Source: Gammaproteobacteria bacterium (GTDB lineage Bacteria; Pseudomonadota; Gammaproteobacteria; SZUA-152). From it: a stretch of 64,000 bases of DNA. The stretch covers positions 1 through 64,000 of the forward strand of contig JAVVEP010000013.1 in NCBI GenBank assembly GCA_032250735.1. Direction: 5' to 3'. Of this stretch, positions 6,119-16,373 are shown piece after piece. The notes under the pieces were generated by a model. It was not told the origin of the DNA and searched no databases. It saw only the letters and a list, made by a program, of their open reading frames with translations. Made by a program: the position numbers and the translations under genes. Each line of letters opens with the position of its first letter. The first letter of the stretch is position 1.

Positions 6119-6559
6119 ATGAGTACATCCATGAACGATACAGACCTGGAGTTACAAAGCGGTATCGCCGCCTTCGAAGCCAAAGATTTCACCAGCGCAA
6201 TGCGCCTGCTTTCCACCCTCGCAGACCAGGGCGTCGCGGAGGCGCAATATCGCATGGGCATGATGCTGCAAAACGGCCTGGGCCGCGTCAAGAATACCGA
6301 GGCCGCCATCCGCTGGATGCGCGCCGCCGCCGAGCAGAATCACGCCTACGCACAGCATGGCATGGGGGTGATGTACCTGTACGGGGAAGGGGTCGAAAAG
6401 GATGAGGCTATGGCGGTGCAGTGGTTTCGCCGTGCGGCAGAGCAGGGGCTTCCCGGCGCGCAGATGACCCTGGGCATGATGTACGAAAATGGTCAGGGGG
6501 TGGAAAAGGATGAGCTCGAGGCCCGACGCTGGTACAAGCTGGCGGACGAAAACAGCTAG
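6119..6559 (+). CDS. Sel1-repeat protein
   Basis: 146-aa protein built from three to four Sel1-like repeats (about 36 residues each). The motif A-E-A-Q-Y-x-M-G-x-M-L-Q-x-G-x-G-V recurs at about residues 41, 77 and 113 (AEAQYRMGMM, AYAQHGMGVMY, PGAQMTLGMMY). Such solenoids are protein-protein scaffolds. No signal peptide is seen, so a cytoplasmic location is likely; a separate Sel1 protein at 39695-40411 is exported. The start could be 6119 or 6131; neither has a clear ribosome site. A terminator follows at 6600-6628. Confidence 0.8.
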   Translation: MSTSMNDTDLELQSGIAAFEAKDFTSAMRLLSTLADQGVAEAQYRMGMMLQNGLGRVKNTEAAIRWMRAAAEQNHAYAQHGMGVMYLYGEGVEKDEAMAVQWFRRAAEQGLPGAQMTLGMMYENGQGVEKDELEARRWYKLADENS

Positions 6560-8217: not shown

Positions 8218-8256
8218 AAAAAAGGCCCGGCATCTGTCGATGACGGGCCTTTTTTA
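8218..8256. terminator. Bidirectional intrinsic terminator
   Basis: Stem AAAAAAGGCCCG...CATC / GATG..CGGGCCTTTTTT with a TGTC loop and one bulge, between the convergent PKHD gene and the DsrC-family gene. A- and T-runs on the two sides suit both directions. Confidence 0.85.
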
Positions 8257-8273: not shown

Positions 8274-8612
8274 TCAATAGCCACCCTTGCGACGCGATTC
8301 CGGCAGGCCGGCAATACGTCCACCCTGCTTGCTCGGATCCTTGGGAAACAGTTCGTAAATATCTTTCTGCCCAATCTTTTCGTTCCATTTCTCGGACATC
8401 GCCTTGACGATAGCACGGGTATTGGGCTGGTTACCGGCGTTATTGATGTATTCGTCCCGCAAATACTCAATCAGGTCCCAGTGTTTATCCGTGAGTTCAA
8501 CGCCCTCTTCTCTGGCAACATGCTCCGCCAGGGCCTTGCTCCAGTCTTCATGATTGATGAGGTAGCCGCCGGGAGTCGTTTCAATGCTCTTACCGTCAAT
8601 CTCAATAGCCAT
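8274..8612 (-). CDS. Cysteine-free DsrC/TusE-family protein (RspA type)
   Basis: 112-aa DsrC/TusE-family protein with the family fold signature (MAIEIDGKSIETTPGGYL, W in NHEDWSKALAEHVA, LTDKHWDLIEYLRDEY, DIYELFPKDPSKQGGRIAGLP). DsrC carries sulfur on two C-terminal cysteines. This protein has none: the inner one (Cys98 in the dsrC gene here) is Gly98, the tail is ESRRKGGY, and there is no Cys anywhere. Cysteine-less members are called RspA and are thought to be regulatory. It is the last gene of a four-gene minus-strand cluster. It cannot carry sulfur as DsrC does; it may bind partners of DsrC or DNA. An AAAGGAGAG site supports the start. Confidence 0.88.
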   Translation of the reverse strand: MAIEIDGKSIETTPGGYLINHEDWSKALAEHVAREEGVELTDKHWDLIEYLRDEYINNAGNQPNTRAIVKAMSEKWNEKIGQKDIYELFPKDPSKQGGRIAGLPESRRKGGY

Positions 8613-8717: not shown

Positions 8718-9404
8718 TTAATCATTTTGCTTGCGTAGATCATCAATGCCTTTATGCGGAATAAAGAGCCCGCAGCCCAGATGCCGATAGGGGCCTATGC
8801 CCTTCTGCTGCAAGCGCAGGGATTCGTCCACTTCCAGTCCCGCAATCATCAGGCTGCGGGTGCGAATACGGGCATCGGGCGTACCAATAAAGTGTTCTGT
8901 ACCGCACATCATTTTACGCGGTTTGATATCCAGCGCCTGCAGCTGCGCATAGACCCAGTCCAGCACCTGTTCCTCTACCGCCATGTCCTGATCGGTGGCA
9001 ATCGCGCGAGAAAACAGGGTGGTGAGGGTCACCAATGGGCGCTCGGTGGCGGACTTTACTTCCAGGGTATTGCCCGCCACATCCAGCACGGCGCCTTCCA
9101 AGATCTTGGCATCACTGACGCGATGTGCGGGCACACGCAGTTCCAGGCGCGTACGTTTCGACAGATGCAGCAGGGCATTGGGGTCTTCGGGCCTGATCCA
9201 GCCGTTACCAGAGGTGGCAACATTAATGGCATGCAAACCGGCCTCGGGCTCATCCACCAGCCAGGGCAGGCTTGCCTGCACGGCCTGGGACAATGCATAA
9301 ACATGGTCTACCGGCAGGCTGCGGCAGTTCAGGCCGAACACCAGATCCACCACGGCATTATCCGTGTTGACTGTTTGCGGCTGTTCGTCGTCTTGCCAGT
9401 ACAT
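8718..9404 (-). CDS. Orphan Cas6/Cmx6-like protein (type I-MYXAN Cas6 family)
   Basis: 228-aa protein whose layout matches the Cas6/Cmx6 family as I recall it: N-terminal VDLVFGLNCRSLPVDHVYAL and SLPWL; a middle LSKRTRLELRVPAHR block; LEGAVLDVAGNTLEV; RPLVTLTTLFSRAI; and C-terminal LEVDESLRLQQKGIG with GPYRHLGCGLFIPHK, the Gly-rich RNA-binding loop typical of Cas6. Cas6 proteins cut CRISPR repeat RNA. No CRISPR array or other cas gene lies in the window, and the neighbours are an RspA-type DsrC paralogue (about 100 bp downstream) and two unknowns. A role outside CRISPR, perhaps RNA binding linked to sulfur metabolism, is inference. The family call depends on recall of motifs. Confidence 0.65.
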   Translation of the reverse strand: MYWQDDEQPQTVNTDNAVVDLVFGLNCRSLPVDHVYALSQAVQASLPWLVDEPEAGLHAINVATSGNGWIRPEDPNALLHLSKRTRLELRVPAHRVSDAKILEGAVLDVAGNTLEVKSATERPLVTLTTLFSRAIATDQDMAVEEQVLDWVYAQLQALDIKPRKMMCGTEHFIGTPDARIRTRSLMIAGLEVDESLRLQQKGIGPYRHLGCGLFIPHKGIDDLRKQND

Positions 9405-9433: not shown

Positions 9434-10141
9434 TTACTGGTCAGGCAATGATGCCCAGATCGCATCACGATCCACCCACCAGTCATCCTGCACCAGTACA
9501 TCCACGACATTACGCAATCGTGGCAGAAATTTTTCCGGCTCCTTGAGTTCCAGCTTGTCCAGCCAGTAATCAAATTGCTCCTGCTTTTCCACCTCACTGT
9601 GACGCCGCGCGACGGTTGCCAGCATATGGTTGGTGAATAACAGTAAATTGTCGCGTTGTTTGCCTTCCGATCTCAGATCAACCAGATAGCGTGCAACAAT
9701 CGCGGCCACCGCCGCGCCATCGGAATCCGTCGGCGTTTCATCAATAATGTGTTGCAATAGGGCAACCGACAATTCGACATCAATGGGGAAGGTCACCGCC
9801 AGCCAGACGCCCTGCCCCAGGGCCGCCAGTGAATAGGGTTGATCGGCCAGAAACATGACATTGCAGGCAGCGGCGGCGGATTCCCAGTCCTGCCCGGCAA
9901 CAAACACATCAAAGGCTTCGCGCGCGGTATCAAAGGCCTCTTCACGCCGCGCCAGCTCCACCAGAATTTCGGCGATACGCAGCAATACCGCGGCACGCTG
10001 TACCGGCTGATAGCCTGCCGGCAGCTCCATCAGCTCCTGACGCGCAGTCGCCAGATCATGTTCTAATTGAGGAATCGAGACAGCGGCCTCATCACCACTG
10101 TCCGCATCCCGCATGCCCATATTGTCATCCAGATATTTCAT
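9434..10141 (-). CDS. Hypothetical helical (TPR-like) protein
   Basis: 235-aa acidic, all-helical protein. Residues about 45-105 show paired helices with an A-x-x-L-x-x-x-A-x-x-x-x pattern like tetratricopeptide units (RAAVLLRIAEILVELARRE, then AFDTAREAFDVFVAGQDW, then SAAAACNVMFLAD). No signal peptide. Second gene of the minus-strand cluster, 29 bp before the Cmx6-like gene. I do not recognise the family; a scaffold role is possible. Confidence 0.6.
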   Translation of the reverse strand: MKYLDDNMGMRDADSGDEAAVSIPQLEHDLATARQELMELPAGYQPVQRAAVLLRIAEILVELARREEAFDTAREAFDVFVAGQDWESAAAACNVMFLADQPYSLAALGQGVWLAVTFPIDVELSVALLQHIIDETPTDSDGAAVAAIVARYLVDLRSEGKQRDNLLLFTNHMLATVARRHSEVEKQEQFDYWLDKLELKEPEKFLPRLRNVVDVLVQDDWWVDRDAIWASLPDQ

Positions 10142-10221: not shown

Positions 10222-10449
10222 CTAGTCTTCTTCGGTACAGCCTTTATAGGCACCCATCACAGAATGCACGCCGGCAAAGGCGCCTTCTACCTTGTCTTCC
10301 CAGTTGCCGGGCGTATCGGGATAGCTGGGCTTGATATCGATCTTGAGATGGATCTCGCCCTGCTTGGCCTTCTCGTCAATCAGCTGCAGCAACTGTTCAA
10401 ACGATTCGTAGTGTGGATTCTGGATCAATAATTCACTCAGATAAATCAT
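10222..10449 (-). CDS. Small hypothetical protein, 75 aa
   Basis: First gene of the RspA/Cmx6-like cluster. The start MIYLSELLIQNPHYESF at 10449 is preferred to the upstream in-frame ATG at 10494 because of a TTGGGA site 6 nt before it. Short amphipathic helix (SFEQLLQLIDEKAKQ) followed by a beta-like stretch (EIHLKIDIKPSYPDTPGNW) and one Cys near the end (YKGCTEED). No homologue recognised. Confidence 0.55.
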   Translation of the reverse strand: MIYLSELLIQNPHYESFEQLLQLIDEKAKQGEIHLKIDIKPSYPDTPGNWEDKVEGAFAGVHSVMGAYKGCTEED

Positions 10450-10556: not shown

Positions 10557-11471
10557 TCACAACACTCGATCATAATAACGGGCGCGATACATCAATCGCC
10601 CCGCTTCAGCATCCGCATCATTCTCAAAGGCGCTGCGGGTATGCAGGACATTGTTACTGATAATGCCTTCACCGGCGGCGAGACGCCTTTTAAAACAATA
10701 TGGCGATTGCTCCGTCAACAGCCGCTCGACACATTTTACCGCCGCCTGTGTATCGGCATCGGCTTTCCACACTATGGACCGGGTGCGTGCAGTGTACCGC
10801 ATGTGCAAATGGCCGCTGTGGGGATCCACTGAAAATACCGGCCCGGATTGGGCAGGACGAATTTCGGTGCCGGCCTCGATATTGGCAGGAATGGTCATCA
10901 CGTCCTCCTGCATCAAGGCCGCAACATGGTTCGGGTTTTCATCACGCAGCTGCAGATACAACATCTCATGATCCATCAGGGCATTCTCGCCACCCCGTGC
11001 TGCCGGGCGGGCACAGTGCAAGACCATGGCGTGAATGGTGCGCGATGGCGGATTATAGTAACCGTCGGTATGCCAGCTAATGGCGCGATTACTATAAGGA
11101 ATATATTCATGCTGGCGTGGCTGGGCGGAGACCTGCAGGGCAGAGATGCCGTCATCCTCGGCGTAGAGATTCTGGTCCAGACGCGACAGGCCAAATTGCC
11201 GCCCCATGCGGGCCACCGCCGAGCTGTCCGATATCCGCTCATCGCGAGGCCCTTTGCTCACATAAACCGCCATATTGGCGCGGGCACAGCTCCGGCGCAG
11301 GGCACTGCGCTCGGCGTCGGTCAAGTCAAACGGATCGGCCACCTCCACCACCAGCTGCTCCAGGTCGTGTGGATAAGACGACAATTTCTGCTCACGCCAC
11401 GCGGCATAGGCGCGTTCGTCGCCCAACGCAAAGGGATTTCCATCCATGACGGGATTCAGCTTATCGACCAT
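10557..11471 (-). CDS. TauD/TfdA-family Fe(II)/2-oxoglutarate dioxygenase
   Basis: 304-aa dioxygenase. The iron triad is visible: H-T-D in ISWHTDGYYNPPS (about residue 135), the distal His in NNVLHTRSAF (about 280), and Arg in GRLMYRARYYD for 2-oxoglutarate. Related enzymes hydroxylate taurine, gamma-butyrobetaine or peptide substrates; the substrate cannot be read here. Start 11471 (MVDKLNPVMDG) has an AGG upstream; the frame is open further to 11561 with no ribosome site. It may be the first gene ahead of the 75-aa gene. A 15-bp palindrome lies 33 bp upstream of this start. Confidence 0.8.
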   Translation of the reverse strand: MVDKLNPVMDGNPFALGDERAYAAWREQKLSSYPHDLEQLVVEVADPFDLTDAERSALRRSCARANMAVYVSKGPRDERISDSSAVARMGRQFGLSRLDQNLYAEDDGISALQVSAQPRQHEYIPYSNRAISWHTDGYYNPPSRTIHAMVLHCARPAARGGENALMDHEMLYLQLRDENPNHVAALMQEDVMTIPANIEAGTEIRPAQSGPVFSVDPHSGHLHMRYTARTRSIVWKADADTQAAVKCVERLLTEQSPYCFKRRLAAGEGIISNNVLHTRSAFENDADAEAGRLMYRARYYDRVL

Positions 11472-11503
11472 TTTATTGCAGCCTGTTTTCGACATATTTT
11501 TCA

Positions 11504-11518
11504 ACATATGACATATGT
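11504..11518. promoter_or_regulatory. 15-bp palindrome upstream of the dioxygenase
   Basis: Perfect inverted repeat ACATATG-a-CATATGT, 33-47 bp before the proposed start codon. Spacing and symmetry fit a dimeric repressor operator. The regulator is unknown. Confidence 0.4.
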
Positions 11519-11738
11519 AGTGTGATCCATTAAAGCATCGTCGCCAGGGCGCCGACATCACATCGCCTGACGGGCTTATAACCTACAACGGACCACATCT
11601 TAAAATTACCATATAATCATATTAGCGTCTGTTAATATTTAGAGAAATAGTCTACAGTATCCTGATGGGTGGTTGCATATACCGTTCGAGATGAATGCCG
11701 AAAGGCAACATCAACGAGCATGGGCCATCATTCTGCAA

Positions 11739-12107: not shown

Positions 12108-13421
12108 ATGGCCGAGCAAACACCGAAGAATCCTGAAGTACACAGCACTTATCTCCCCAAGGAGAAAAAGTCGACCAAACCTTTCCATGACACCCCCATG
12201 ATCGACACGCTGGAATCCGGCCCGTGGCCAAGCTTCGTCACCGGCCTCAAGCGTCTGGCCATGGCAGAGACTCACGGCAACATGATGGTCGACCTGCTGG
12301 GTCAGCTCGAACACTCTTACAATACCCGTCTCGGTTACTGGAAAGGCGGTACCGTGTCCGTACTGGGTTACGGCGGCGGTATCATTCCCCGCTTCACCGA
12401 GCTGATGGGCGAAAATGGCAAGCCCATGTTCCCCGAATCCAAGGAATTCCACACCGTGCGCGTGCAGCCACCCGCCGGTAACCACTACAGCACCACCATG
12501 CTGCGTCAGCTGTCCAACTCCTGGAACAAGTACGGCTCGGGCCTCATCGCCTTCCACGGCCAGACCGGCAACATCATGTTCATCGGTACAACTTCTGACA
12601 ATGTCCAACCCTTCTTTGATGAAATCAATGACTACGGTTGGGATCTCGGCGGCGCCGGCCCTTGCGTCCGTACCGGCATGTCCTGCGTCGGTGCAGCCCG
12701 TTGCGAACAGTCCTGCGCCAATGAACAGAAGATTCACCGGATGCTGGTGAACAACTTCCTTGACGACATGCATCGCCCCGCCCTGCCCTACAAATTCAAA
12801 TTCAAAGTGTCCGGTTGCCCGAATGACTGCATGAACTCCATCCAGCGTTCCGACTTTGCCGTGATCGGTACCTGGCGCGATGACATGAAAGTCGATCAGG
12901 ACGAAGTGAAGAAATTTGTTGCTGCCAAAGGCCGCAAATACGTCATCGACAGCGTAGTGAATATGTGTCCTACCAGCGCCCTGTCACTGAATGACGACGA
13001 CACCCTGGCCGTGGACAACCGCAACTGCGTGCGTTGCATGCACTGCATCAACGTCATGACCCGCGCCCTGTCACCCGGCGACGACCACGGCGTCACCATC
13101 CTGCTGGGCGGCAAACGCACCCTCAAGATCGGCGACACCATGGGTACCGTGCTGATCCCCTTCAAGAAGCTGGAAACCGAAGAGGATTACGAAAGCCTGG
13201 TTGAGCTTACCGAGGAAATCATTGATTTCTGGGCAGAAAACGCCCTGGAGCACGAGCGCGTGGGCGAAACCATCGACCGCATCGGGCTGGTCAACTTCCT
13301 CGAAGGCATCAATGTCGATGTCGATCCCAACATGATCTCCGAGGCACGTCAGAGCAGCTATGTGCGCATGGATACCTGGGACGAAGAAGCCGAGAAGTGG
13401 AAAGAGCGGCAGGCAGGCTAA
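12108..13421 (+). CDS. dsrA: Reverse dissimilatory sulfite reductase, alpha subunit
   Basis: 437 aa, the usual DsrA length. Forms alpha2beta2 with DsrB in the cytoplasm and oxidises DsrC-bound persulfide sulfur to sulfite with six electrons. The sirohaem/[4Fe-4S] ligand pattern is visible: CVGAARC (C193-C199) with CEQSC, then GCPNDC (C237, C241). An inserted ferredoxin domain has MCPTSAL and NCVRCMHC. The start at 12108 (MAEQTPKNPEVHSTY) has a GAGGAG site; the longer open frame from 12042 lacks one. First gene of the cluster. Presence of dsrEFH, dsrL and dsrN makes this the oxidative type. Confidence 0.97.
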   Translation: MAEQTPKNPEVHSTYLPKEKKSTKPFHDTPMIDTLESGPWPSFVTGLKRLAMAETHGNMMVDLLGQLEHSYNTRLGYWKGGTVSVLGYGGGIIPRFTELMGENGKPMFPESKEFHTVRVQPPAGNHYSTTMLRQLSNSWNKYGSGLIAFHGQTGNIMFIGTTSDNVQPFFDEINDYGWDLGGAGPCVRTGMSCVGAARCEQSCANEQKIHRMLVNNFLDDMHRPALPYKFKFKVSGCPNDCMNSIQRSDFAVIGTWRDDMKVDQDEVKKFVAAKGRKYVIDSVVNMCPTSALSLNDDDTLAVDNRNCVRCMHCINVMTRALSPGDDHGVTILLGGKRTLKIGDTMGTVLIPFKKLETEEDYESLVELTEEIIDFWAENALEHERVGETIDRIGLVNFLEGINVDVDPNMISEARQSSYVRMDTWDEEAEKWKERQAG

Positions 13422-13497: not shown

Positions 13498-14571
13498 ATG
13501 AGCGCAAAACCACGCTTTCCCATCGAGAGTGGTGTACCGGATCCCTTCCAGTACATGCACCCGGCCTATATCAAAAACTACGGCAACTGGGCCTATCATG
13601 ACCGCCCACGCCCTGGCGTACTGCATCATGTCTCTAAAACGGGTGATGAAGTCTGGACCGTGCGCGTGGGCACCCAGCGCCAATTAGGCCCGTACGAGAT
13701 CAACCTGCTGTGTGACATCATCGACAGGCTGGCCGACGGTTATGTCCGTTTCACGATCCGCTCCAACATGGAAGTGACCGTCACCGACGAAGCCAAGGTA
13801 CAGCCCCTGATCGACGCCTTTGAAGACGCCGGTTATCCGGTGGGCGGAACCGGTCCCTCCGTGACCATGATCTCCCACACCCAGGGCTGGTTGCACTGCG
13901 ACATCCCCGGCACCGATGCCTCCGGCGTGGTTAAGGCACTGATGGATGAGCTGTACGAGGAGTTCAAGACGGAAAGCATGCCTAACCGCGTGCACATGAC
14001 CACTTCCTGCTGCCAGATTAACTGCGGCGGCCAGGGCGATATCGCCATCAACGTGCAGCACACCAAGCCACCCAAGATTAACCATGACCTGGTCGCCAAC
14101 GTCTGCGAACGTCCGACGGTGGTGGCGCGATGCCCGGTTGCGGCGATCCGCCCTGCCATGGTCAACGGCAAACCTTCACTGGAAGTGGACGAGAAGAAGT
14201 GCATCTGTTGCGGCGCCTGCTTCCCACCCTGCCCGCCGATGCAGATCAATGACCCGGAACATTCCAAGCTGGCCATCTGGGTGGGCGGTAAACACTCCAA
14301 TGCCCGTAGCAAACCGATGTTCCACAAACTGGTCGCTGCCGGCATCCCCAACAATGCACCCCGTTGGCCTGAAGTGACCGCAGTCGTAAAAAACATTCTT
14401 CATACCTATAAGAATGATGCCAAAGACTGGGAACGTATTGGTGACTGGATCGAACGCATCGGCTGGCCGCGCTTCTTCGAGCTGACCCAGCTGCCGTTCA
14501 CCAAGTTCCATATCGACAACTGGACCGGTGCCCGTAAAACGCTCAATGCCTCGACGCATATCCGTTTCTAA
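13498..14571 (+). CDS. dsrB: Reverse dissimilatory sulfite reductase, beta subunit
   Basis: 357 aa. Starts 76 bp after dsrA with a TGGAG site. Contains the sirohaem-domain motif TTSCCQINCGGQGDIA, a second Cys segment (CERPTVVARCPVAAI) and a ferredoxin domain with CICCGACFPPCPPM. DsrB binds the catalytically active sirohaem in characterised DsrAB and offers the docking groove for the DsrC tail. All expected cysteines appear present. Confidence 0.97.
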   Translation: MSAKPRFPIESGVPDPFQYMHPAYIKNYGNWAYHDRPRPGVLHHVSKTGDEVWTVRVGTQRQLGPYEINLLCDIIDRLADGYVRFTIRSNMEVTVTDEAKVQPLIDAFEDAGYPVGGTGPSVTMISHTQGWLHCDIPGTDASGVVKALMDELYEEFKTESMPNRVHMTTSCCQINCGGQGDIAINVQHTKPPKINHDLVANVCERPTVVARCPVAAIRPAMVNGKPSLEVDEKKCICCGACFPPCPPMQINDPEHSKLAIWVGGKHSNARSKPMFHKLVAAGIPNNAPRWPEVTAVVKNILHTYKNDAKDWERIGDWIERIGWPRFFELTQLPFTKFHIDNWTGARKTLNASTHIRF

Positions 14572-14597: not shown

Positions 14598-14990
14598 ATG
14601 AAATTTTCTGTAATGATCAGCGAAGGCCCGTACACGCATCAGGCGTCGGACACGGCCTATAACTTCACCAAAGCGGCTCTGGAGAATGGACACGAATGTT
14701 TTCGTGTCTTTTTCTACCACGATGGCGTCAACAACGGCACTCGCCTGTCGACGCCGCCAACGGATGATCGTAATGTGATCAACCGCTGGTCGGAACTGGC
14801 CGCAGCGCACAATCTGGATCTGGTGTTATGCGTTGCCGCCGCCCAGCGTCGCGGTATCGCAGATGCCGACGAGGCCAAGCGCAATGGCAAAGATGCCGAC
14901 AACATCGCACCGGGTTTTCGCATTTCCGGCCTGGGCCAGTTAATCGAAGCCGGCATCCAGAGTGACCGTTTGGTCACCTTTGGCGACTAG
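14598..14990 (+). CDS. dsrE: Sulfurtransferase DsrE
   Basis: 130 aa. DsrE is the sulfur-carrying subunit of the DsrE2F2H2 hexamer (TusBCD-like) that passes persulfide to DsrC. The active Cys is at position 78 (DLVLCVAAAQRRGI), the same number as in the Allochromatium protein. The Gly-rich end ISGLGQLIEAG is also kept. Starts 26 bp after dsrB with an AGAGG site. Cytoplasmic. Confidence 0.96.
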   Translation: MKFSVMISEGPYTHQASDTAYNFTKAALENGHECFRVFFYHDGVNNGTRLSTPPTDDRNVINRWSELAAAHNLDLVLCVAAAQRRGIADADEAKRNGKDADNIAPGFRISGLGQLIEAGIQSDRLVTFGD

Positions 14991-15002
14991 GGGAAGTAAG
15001 CA

Positions 15003-15410
15003 ATGTCTGAAACGAAAAAATTTTTATACGTCAATCGTAAGGCTCCCTATGGAACCATTTACGCGCTGGAATCACTGGAAGTGGTGCTGATCGGCGCCGC
15101 CTTTGAACAGGATGTCGCCCTCGCCTTTTTGGACGATGGCGTCTATCAGCTCACCAAAGGCCAGGCTACCGACGAGGTAGGCATGAAGAACTTTTCACCC
15201 ACCTACCGGGCACTGGGCGATTACGACGTCAACAAAATCTATGTGGAGCAAGAGTCCCTGGATGCGCGCGGTCTAAGCCTCGACGACCTGCAAGCTCTGA
15301 CCTATGAAGACGAAGATGACGATTATGCCGAAAAGGATTCCATCAAAGTGGTATCCGCAGCCGAGCTGGCCAAAATCATGGAACAGTCCGACGTCATACT
15401 GAGCTTCTAA
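15003..15410 (+). CDS. dsrF: DsrF, subunit of the DsrEFH sulfurtransferase
   Basis: 135 aa, TusC-like. FLYVNRKAPYGTIYALESLEV and FLDDGVYQL are family signatures. It contains no cysteine, in line with a structural role in the DsrEFH hexamer. Starts 12 bp after dsrE with a GGGGAAG site, so it is translated as part of the same message. Confidence 0.95.
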   Translation: MSETKKFLYVNRKAPYGTIYALESLEVVLIGAAFEQDVALAFLDDGVYQLTKGQATDEVGMKNFSPTYRALGDYDVNKIYVEQESLDARGLSLDDLQALTYEDEDDDYAEKDSIKVVSAAELAKIMEQSDVILSF

Positions 15411-15458
15411 TTCGAGATTGAACGCGAGCTTAAACGAGCTTAAAGAAGGAAGAGATAC

Positions 15459-15767
15459 ATGTCACAGCTACACACGGTAAACAAATCGCCTCTCGATCGC
15501 AATGCGCTGGAATCAGCGATCAGACACGCGACGAAAGGCAACGCCGTCCTCATGATCGAAGATGGCGTTTACGGTGCCATGAAAGGCACACAAAAGTCGG
15601 CAATGGTATCCGATGCAATGGGCGATATTTCTTTTTATGTCATGGGGCCCGACCTCAAGGCGCGAGGAATTGATGAAGGCCGCATTATAGATGGCGTCAA
15701 AGTGGTTGATTATAGCGGTTTTGTAACGTTGGTTGCAGAACACGGCATAACACAATCCTGGCTCTAG
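15459..15767 (+). CDS. dsrH: DsrH, subunit of the DsrEFH sulfurtransferase (no Cys20)
   Basis: 102 aa, TusB-like (AVLMIEDGVYGAMKGTQ, FYVMGPDLKARGI, GFVTLVAEHGITQSWL). The C-terminal W-L is typical. The Cys at position 20 of the Allochromatium protein is Ala20 here (ALESAIRHA), and the protein has no cysteine at all. The hexamer would then rely on DsrE Cys78 alone. An AAGAAGGAAGAG site precedes the start. Confidence 0.94.
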   Translation: MSQLHTVNKSPLDRNALESAIRHATKGNAVLMIEDGVYGAMKGTQKSAMVSDAMGDISFYVMGPDLKARGIDEGRIIDGVKVVDYSGFVTLVAEHGITQSWL

Positions 15768-15830: not shown

Positions 15831-16163
15831 ATGGCCCTAGAAGTAGCTGGCAAAACCGTCGAGACCGATGAAGAAGGTTACCTGGAAAACCGTGACGAAT
15901 GGGACATGGATGTTGCCAAAGCCATCGCCGCAGCAGAAGGTCTTGAAATGACCGACAGTCACTGGGAAGTGGTGAACTTCCTGCGTGAATATTATGAAGA
16001 ATACCAGATTGCGCCTGCGGTTCGCGTGTTGACCAAGGCCATCGGCAAAAAACTGGGCAAGGACAAAGGCAACAGCAAATATCTGTACGAACTGTACCCT
16101 TACGGCCCTGCCAAGCAGGCATGTAAGATTGCCGGTCTGCCCAAGCCTACCGGTTGCGTGTAA
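15831..16163 (+). CDS. dsrC: Sulfur carrier DsrC with both active cysteines
   Basis: 110 aa. The C-terminal arm QACKIAGLPKPTGCV holds Cys98 and the penultimate Cys109, ten residues apart, as needed for trisulfide chemistry. DsrC takes sulfur from DsrEFH, is oxidised by DsrAB, and is recycled by DsrMK. A strong AAGGAGAG site supports high expression. A 10-bp hairpin at 16195-16223 follows the gene. Contrast with the cysteine-free paralogue at 8274-8612. Confidence 0.97.
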   Translation: MALEVAGKTVETDEEGYLENRDEWDMDVAKAIAAAEGLEMTDSHWEVVNFLREYYEEYQIAPAVRVLTKAIGKKLGKDKGNSKYLYELYPYGPAKQACKIAGLPKPTGCV

Positions 16164-16194
16164 TTACGCAGCACTGAGTTGTTCGCACTATCTG

Positions 16195-16223
16195 ACCGGG
16201 CTGGTTTTATTTGCCAGCCCGGT
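16195..16223 (+). promoter_or_regulatory. Stem-loop between dsrC and dsrM
   Basis: Perfect 10-bp stem ACCGGGCTGG / CCAGCCCGGT with a 9-nt loop, in the 210-bp gap that is the widest in the first half of the dsr cluster. There is no T-run after it. It may act as a partial terminator or a 3'-stabilising hairpin that raises dsrC mRNA over dsrM. Confidence 0.5.
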
Positions 16224-16373
16224 TAGCGAACCACCACACAACAGGTCACGTTACTAAAAATCAGTCTGTTATCGACAATGTTTTGTATCGCGATAGCGCG
16301 CTTATTTTTATTTGCAGCTTGTTAGCAATCAAGATTCATTAATTAAACCCTTTTGTTAACCACAGGTTTACTC

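Follow-up and report, generated by a model that had tools for sequence, protein, structure and literature searches.

A CRISPR-free Cas6-family protein tied to the reverse Dsr pathway in Gammaproteobacteria

Results

An orphan Cas6-family gene in a string divergent from the dsr genes

The window, i.e., the whole 64-kb stretch of DNA that we analysed, contains dsr genes on the forward strand and, divergent from them on the reverse strand, a string of genes that includes cas6x, as we call the orphan Cas6-family gene and its product (Table 1). The initial annotation had placed a Cas6/Cmx6-like protein here, with a DsrC paralogue and two unknowns as its neighbors on the same strand, and we found this arrangement as described. 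The smaller of the two unknowns, p63, is listed as an ORF that reaches 10494, and a conserved Met at 10449 is its likely start. A gene related to the TauD-like gene at the head of the string is present in some relatives.

Table 1. Features of the cas6x and dsr region of the window
Feature	Position	Strand	Remarks
Bidirectional terminator-like palindrome	8218..8255		AAAAAAGGCCCG...CGGGCCTTTTTT; closes the gene string
DsrC-family paralogue (PF04358)	8274..8612	-	Without both functional cysteines; usually downstream of cas6x
cas6x (orphan Cas6-family protein)	8718..9404	-	228 aa, ATG start
235-aa protein, no known family	9434..10141	-	Between p63 and cas6x in many, not all lineages
p63, small conserved partner	10222..10449	-	75 aa in the window, ~63 aa in the majority of genomes
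TauD-family dioxygenase-like gene	10557..11561	-	First gene of the divergent string; start codon uncertain
dsrA	12108..13421	+	Divergent from the cas6x gene string
dsrB	13498..14571	+	By order, length and similarity
dsrE, dsrF, dsrH	14598..15767	+	By order and length
dsrC proper	15831..16163	+	Both C-terminal cysteines, C98 and C109
Strong hairpin, dsrC-dsrM gap	16193..16226	+	Considered as a Cas6x target, unsupported

Sequence and predicted fold of cas6x

Cas6 is the enzyme that cuts CRISPR RNA. In profile searches, cas6x was matched significantly by Pfam PF09559 Cas6 (1.2e-56, 192 bits), by NCBIfam TIGR02807 cas6_cmx6 (111.7 bits; cutoff 98.85) and by six Cas6 models of PADLOC (<1e-16). The C terminus carries GIGPYRHLGCGLFIPHKGID in the ORF translation, and the Gly-rich loop that the initial annotation had pointed out is present there as GIGPYRHLGCGLF. 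The protein further has a clade-specific NGWxRP insert and a C-terminal PHKGID tail. An AlphaFold2 model built from 39 relatives (mean pLDDT 86) displayed two RRM-like domains and the C-terminal Gly-rich loop. Comparison of this model with solved Cas6 structures, which the initial annotation had proposed as a check, returned the Cas6 of a type I-B CAST as the best match (8fcj/8fcu; Z 23.8, rmsd 2.0, 193 residues), followed by Pyrococcus Cas6 and other Cas6 structures.

A histidine, H34, directly precedes helix 1 (residues 35-45) in the model. It is invariant in the 39-row alignment, its conservation rounds to 1.00 in a larger set (n = 118), and it is also present in 7 of 7 full-length CRISPR relatives; from its position we presume that H34 is the catalytic residue, although the CAST relative has Asn there. 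Residues R90, L102, Q199, G202, and G204 are common to orphans and CRISPR relatives, and W69, R71, P72, R84, E144, G168, R183, H217, and K218 are for the most part confined to the orphan clade, with R84, E144, and K218 being both clade-specific and near-invariant among the orphans. Pairwise dN/dS of cas6x ranged from 0.09 to 0.43 (mostly 0.1-0.3), indicating that the gene is under purifying selection. Because of these ratios, and because residues are invariant across many families, we rejected the reading that cas6x is a CRISPR remnant.

cas6x stands apart from CRISPR arrays, cas operons and CRISPR Cas6 proteins

To look for arrays, we searched 153 sequences, which total 1.74 Mb and include the window, for exact 23-mers that recur at CRISPR spacing. 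This exact-repeat scan, which a degenerate array could escape, detected no CRISPR-type repeat array within the 64-kb window, in agreement with the initial annotation, and no array at any orphan locus scanned. Arrays were recovered by the same scan in 5 of 8 CRISPR-type loci (L104, L125, L127, L129, and L131) and in none of the other three (L126, L130, and L132; no cas1 annotated in the stretches examined), nor was any detected at a Gloeobacter locus (L124). Where a CRISPR operon would offer cas3, cas5, cas7, cas8 or cas1, cas6x adjoins p63, the DsrC-like gene and dsr genes, in contrast to L104 and L125, in which Cas6 lies beside cas genes. In a midpoint-rooted tree that joined 63 orphans with 8 sequences from CRISPR or CAST systems and a single odd sequence of Gloeobacter, all orphans fell on one side of a branch with support of 99/78, found in 98% of bootstrap trees. 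The orphan Cas6 proteins are thus one clade apart from CRISPR Cas6, the comparison being with only 8 CRISPR-linked sequences, mostly cyanobacterial. By sequence and fold, cas6x is a true member of the Cas6 family, yet, with no array detected, no cas operon and no place in the CRISPR clade, it is not a CRISPR-Cas component.

The genome from which the window comes (3.43 Mb in 61 contigs, 99% complete) has only one PF09559 gene. It has one Cas1 (L003:3-899), which looked I-F-like by eye and lies so close to the edge of contig C35 that the contig break hides the rest of the locus. No Csy4/Cas6f was found in this genome, and no CRISPR-like array was found in the 20 kb of contig C35 examined. The same contig carries two arrays of 13-bp tandem repeats (L003:967-1096 and 6382-6508).

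Two of the comparison loci merit description. L104 (G374:C12:1-20000) is a real gammaproteobacterial CRISPR system with cas3, cas4-cas1, Cas6/Cmx6 and a short array, and its repeat core, TCAACGCCTTTCGGCATC, is common to cyanobacterial I-MYXAN repeats. The Gloeobacter locus, on plasmid pGMOR1 of Gloeobacter morelensis, holds a gene annotated as Cas6/Cmx6 (L124:8974-9765) with no cas gene among its annotated neighbors, which include PAPS-reductase-family and methyltransferase genes; it is possibly another non-CRISPR setting. We also considered carriage of cas6x by phages and rejected it, as none was present in the phages or viral contigs searched.

cas6x co-occurs with dsrA

A scan of species genomes returned 66 close relatives of cas6x, all with proteobacterial titles and many from Chromatiaceae. 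Within the order to which the window belongs, all 15 near-complete genomes have exactly one copy of cas6x, and 9 of the 15 have Cas1; across the class, too, almost all positive genomes have a single copy. Among 370 Gammaproteobacteria genomes with completeness of at least 90%, 128 carry the Cas6 gene (PF09559), 125 a strong dsrA and 150 Cas1, so that the phenomenon is larger than an observation in a single window. Cas6 and dsrA occur together in 122 genomes, Cas6 alone in 6, dsrA alone in 3, and neither in 239 (Fisher P 5e-86, a value that ignores kinship and so overstates the evidence). The corresponding counts for Cas6 and Cas1 are 61, 67, 89, and 153 (P 0.046, marginal), i.e., 67 of the 128 carriers are without Cas1. 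The claim that cas6x is an orphan, independent of CRISPR and recruited in sulfur oxidisers, which the initial annotation had drawn from one locus, is therefore strongly supported across 370 genomes.

The few discordant genomes were inspected individually. One of those with Cas6 only is the genome of the CRISPR system described above, which has no dsrA or dsrB above cutoff and serves as a positive control. Another (G081) has the usual gene string and a fragment of dsrB at a contig end; in three (G132, G284, and G299) cas6x is accompanied by p63 or the DsrC-like gene and lies on a short contig or close to the end of one, and in the last (G102) the gene sits on a 3.5-kb contig. In these last four genomes, dsr may truly be lacking or may only have been left out of the assembly. 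In all three genomes with dsrA only, dsrA is <2 kb from a contig end, and in one of them (G128) the stretch with p63 and the 235-aa gene is cut by the contig edge. Drawing 199 genomes from the phylum yielded only one further carrier, again of class Gammaproteobacteria, with dsrBA divergent and adjacent.

Gene order around dsr, and loci at which it is broken

Quantification of gene order revealed that 94 of 129 Cas6 places are on the same contig as dsrA; 91 of these 94 lie within 10 kb of it, and all 91 are divergent from it. A divergent lineage retains the order dsrA, cas6x and the DsrC-like gene. In three single-contig chromosomes, cas6x and dsrA are 41, 256, and 517 kb apart with both genes kept, and dsrA, cas6x, and p63 are at three separate places; in several other genomes cas6x and dsrA are on different long contigs. 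Retention of cas6x when it is unlinked from dsrA argues against mere hitchhiking. The neighbors of unlinked copies are suggestive only: in one lineage with small genomes (L113-L116, 4 copies) cas6x is divergent from rnc-era-recO and adjoins a thioredoxin-like gene, in another it directly follows a gene for a SpoU-family rRNA methylase, and two other copies adjoin genes for sulfur or sulfite transport.

Partner genes

The small protein p63 has no Pfam match at cutoff and no fold match in the PDB, the latter of which does not prove a new fold. When we searched the same 370 genomes with a 39-row alignment, p63 was found in 114, of which 113 have cas6x, the exception being G128, cut by the contig end; 15 Cas6 carriers gave no p63, among them the genome with the CRISPR system. 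At individual loci, p63 is upstream of cas6x in 90 of 108 with enough flank, an uneven sample in which at least five of the misses are false (L050, L054, L057, L119, and L169).

The DsrC-like gene is a looser companion, downstream of cas6x in 73 of 107 loci with enough flank and missing from the rest (uneven sample). The link to sulfur that the initial annotation had suggested therefore stands through the reverse Dsr pathway and p63, and is weaker for the DsrC paralogue, adjacent in about two thirds of loci. Of 59 aligned DsrC-like sequences, 52 carry Gly where the last cysteine would be; in the remaining 7 both cysteines are present, so that these look like true DsrC. The cysteine-free paralogue we take to be RspA-like, i.e., akin to RspA of the literature. 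The 235-aa gene was present at 75 of 136 loci (uneven sample). In other lineages, 33 loci carry a conserved ORF of ~64 aa that lacks a Pfam match, on the same strand and 3' of the Cas6-like or DsrC-like gene (e.g., L159:6905-7099 and L160:5875-6069, and 31 other loci).

Search for an RNA target

The repeat core of the sister CRISPR systems (GTGNTCAACGCCTNNNGGCATC) gave mismatch counts at orphan loci equal to those of shuffled controls, and genome-wide it gave 11 near matches against 3 in the control, none exact, i.e., weakly above control. A target resembling the sister CRISPR repeats was thus rejected, the orphan loci being no richer in the repeat core than expected by chance. When intercistronic gaps were folded, unusual stability was found for dsrC-dsrM (median z -2.2) and dsrA-dsrB (median z -1.8), compared with median z values of -0.8 to +0.4 for five other gaps. 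Strong hairpins occupy these two gaps at many loci (L133-L152), and their sequence differs between close relatives. Because stems differ even within a genus, we do not claim these hairpins as Cas6x targets; some of the stems resemble dispersed palindromes, and the hairpins may be ordinary mRNA-stabilising elements or such palindromes. The RNA-binding or RNA-processing role raised by the initial annotation accordingly fits the fold, the invariant histidine and the arginines, but these searches yielded no RNA target for it.

Discussion

That a CRISPR-free Cas6-family protein is tied to the reverse Dsr pathway by co-occurrence, by position, and by a small partner is well supported. We propose that cas6x was recruited away from CRISPR and now serves the reverse (oxidative) Dsr pathway of Gammaproteobacteria as a conserved accessory, one that would act on RNA, and we assign this reading a probability of roughly 0.55. 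Fold prediction and conservation make RNA binding likely, and H34 makes RNA cleavage plausible. In such a role the two RRM-like domains and the conserved arginines of cas6x would bind a hairpin or a short RNA motif, and the protein would probably cleave the bound RNA, since the presumed catalytic H34 is invariant; against cleavage it may be said that catalysis is deduced from one invariant position, at which the solved CAST relative has Asn. The protein would act with p63 and often also with the cysteine-free DsrC-like protein, and its role would be one of maturation or control at the RNA level, in connection with sulfur oxidation. More tentatively, and at slightly less than even odds, a Cas6 ribonuclease together with a new protein of ~63 aa could be an obligatory RNA-processing part of reverse Dsr.

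The closest competitor, which we consider rather unlikely, is that cas6x is a Cas6-fold RNA binder devoid of nuclease activity, which might, for example, regulate the dsr or cas6x genes at the level of translation or stability, or by autoregulation. Fold and linkage fit this reading equally, the Asn of the CAST relative speaks for it, and divergence from dsrA is typical of local regulators; yet the histidine is kept in essentially all orphans over a large divergence, which is unexpected if catalysis was lost, and cas6x is retained where it is unlinked from dsr. Since TusE/DsrC-family proteins serve tRNA thiolation, cas6x might instead act on a stable RNA (tRNA or rRNA) in connection with the sulfur relay, which seems improbable to us. 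The DsrC-like protein is indeed a common downstream neighbor, and unlinked copies of cas6x adjoin rnc (RNase III) in one lineage and follow the SpoU-family gene in another, but other unlinked copies adjoin the sulfur or sulfite transport genes, and the DsrC-like neighbor is without cysteines and missing from about a third of loci.

The linkage to dsr could also reflect a non-RNA, structural role, with cas6x having no present RNA function and instead supporting the structure or assembly of Dsr proteins or p63. Its tightest association is, after all, with a small protein and a metabolic pathway, but the histidine, the Gly-rich loop, and the arginines are among its most conserved parts, and we judge this slightly less probable still than action on a stable RNA. 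Least credible is that cas6x acts as an ordinary Cas6 can and processes, in trans, the crRNA of arrays at other sites in the genome. It retains the Cas6 profile, fold, and histidine, and the genome of the window has the contig-edge Cas1 and no Csy4; nevertheless, the association with Cas1 is marginal against that with dsrA, the orphan loci are without arrays and their proteins form a separate clade, and for the carriers that are without Cas1 such processing is implausible.

Profile libraries call these proteins CRISPR-associated Cas6, so that CRISPR-free genomes are credited with a cas gene, and a partner that nearly always accompanies reverse Dsr in Gammaproteobacteria has gone unnoticed behind the Cas6 label; full-text searches of open-licence papers returned no description of a CRISPR-free Cas6. 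Thus, a large group of CRISPR-annotated proteins probably has another job, likeliest RNA work linked to sulfur metabolism. If the proposed role is true, energy metabolism can recruit an enzyme of CRISPR RNA processing, and RNA-level control is added to a pathway known for enzymes and sulfur carriers; if the obligatory role is true, an enzyme that once belonged to CRISPR is required by a core biogeochemical pathway. Allochromatium vinosum is a genetic model, and in two other members of its genus, A. palmeri (L005) and A. humboldtianum (L006), cas6x adjoins dsrA; the question is therefore testable.

Among known systems, the DsrC/TusE family (PF04358) includes the DsrC-like neighbor, yet the adjacent copies are without both functional cysteines. 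The nearest solved structure to cas6x is the type I-B CAST Cas6 (8fcj/8fcu), which works in Cascade-guided transposition and, unlike cas6x, carries Asn in place of the histidine; next to orphan cas6x we saw neither TniQ nor cas genes. The nearest family is Cas6/Cmx6 of type I-MYXAN (an I-B variant; TIGR02807/PF09559), with which cas6x has in common the profile, the two-RRM fold, the position of the histidine and the Gly-rich loop GxGxxxxxGCGxF. Unlike I-MYXAN Cas6/Cmx6, cas6x is without array and cas operon, forms its own clade, has the NGWxRP insert, R84, E144, G168, and the PHK tail, and is linked to dsr and p63. A precedent for a Cas family member outside CRISPR loci is solo-Cas4 (PMC5704561), a nuclease of another family.
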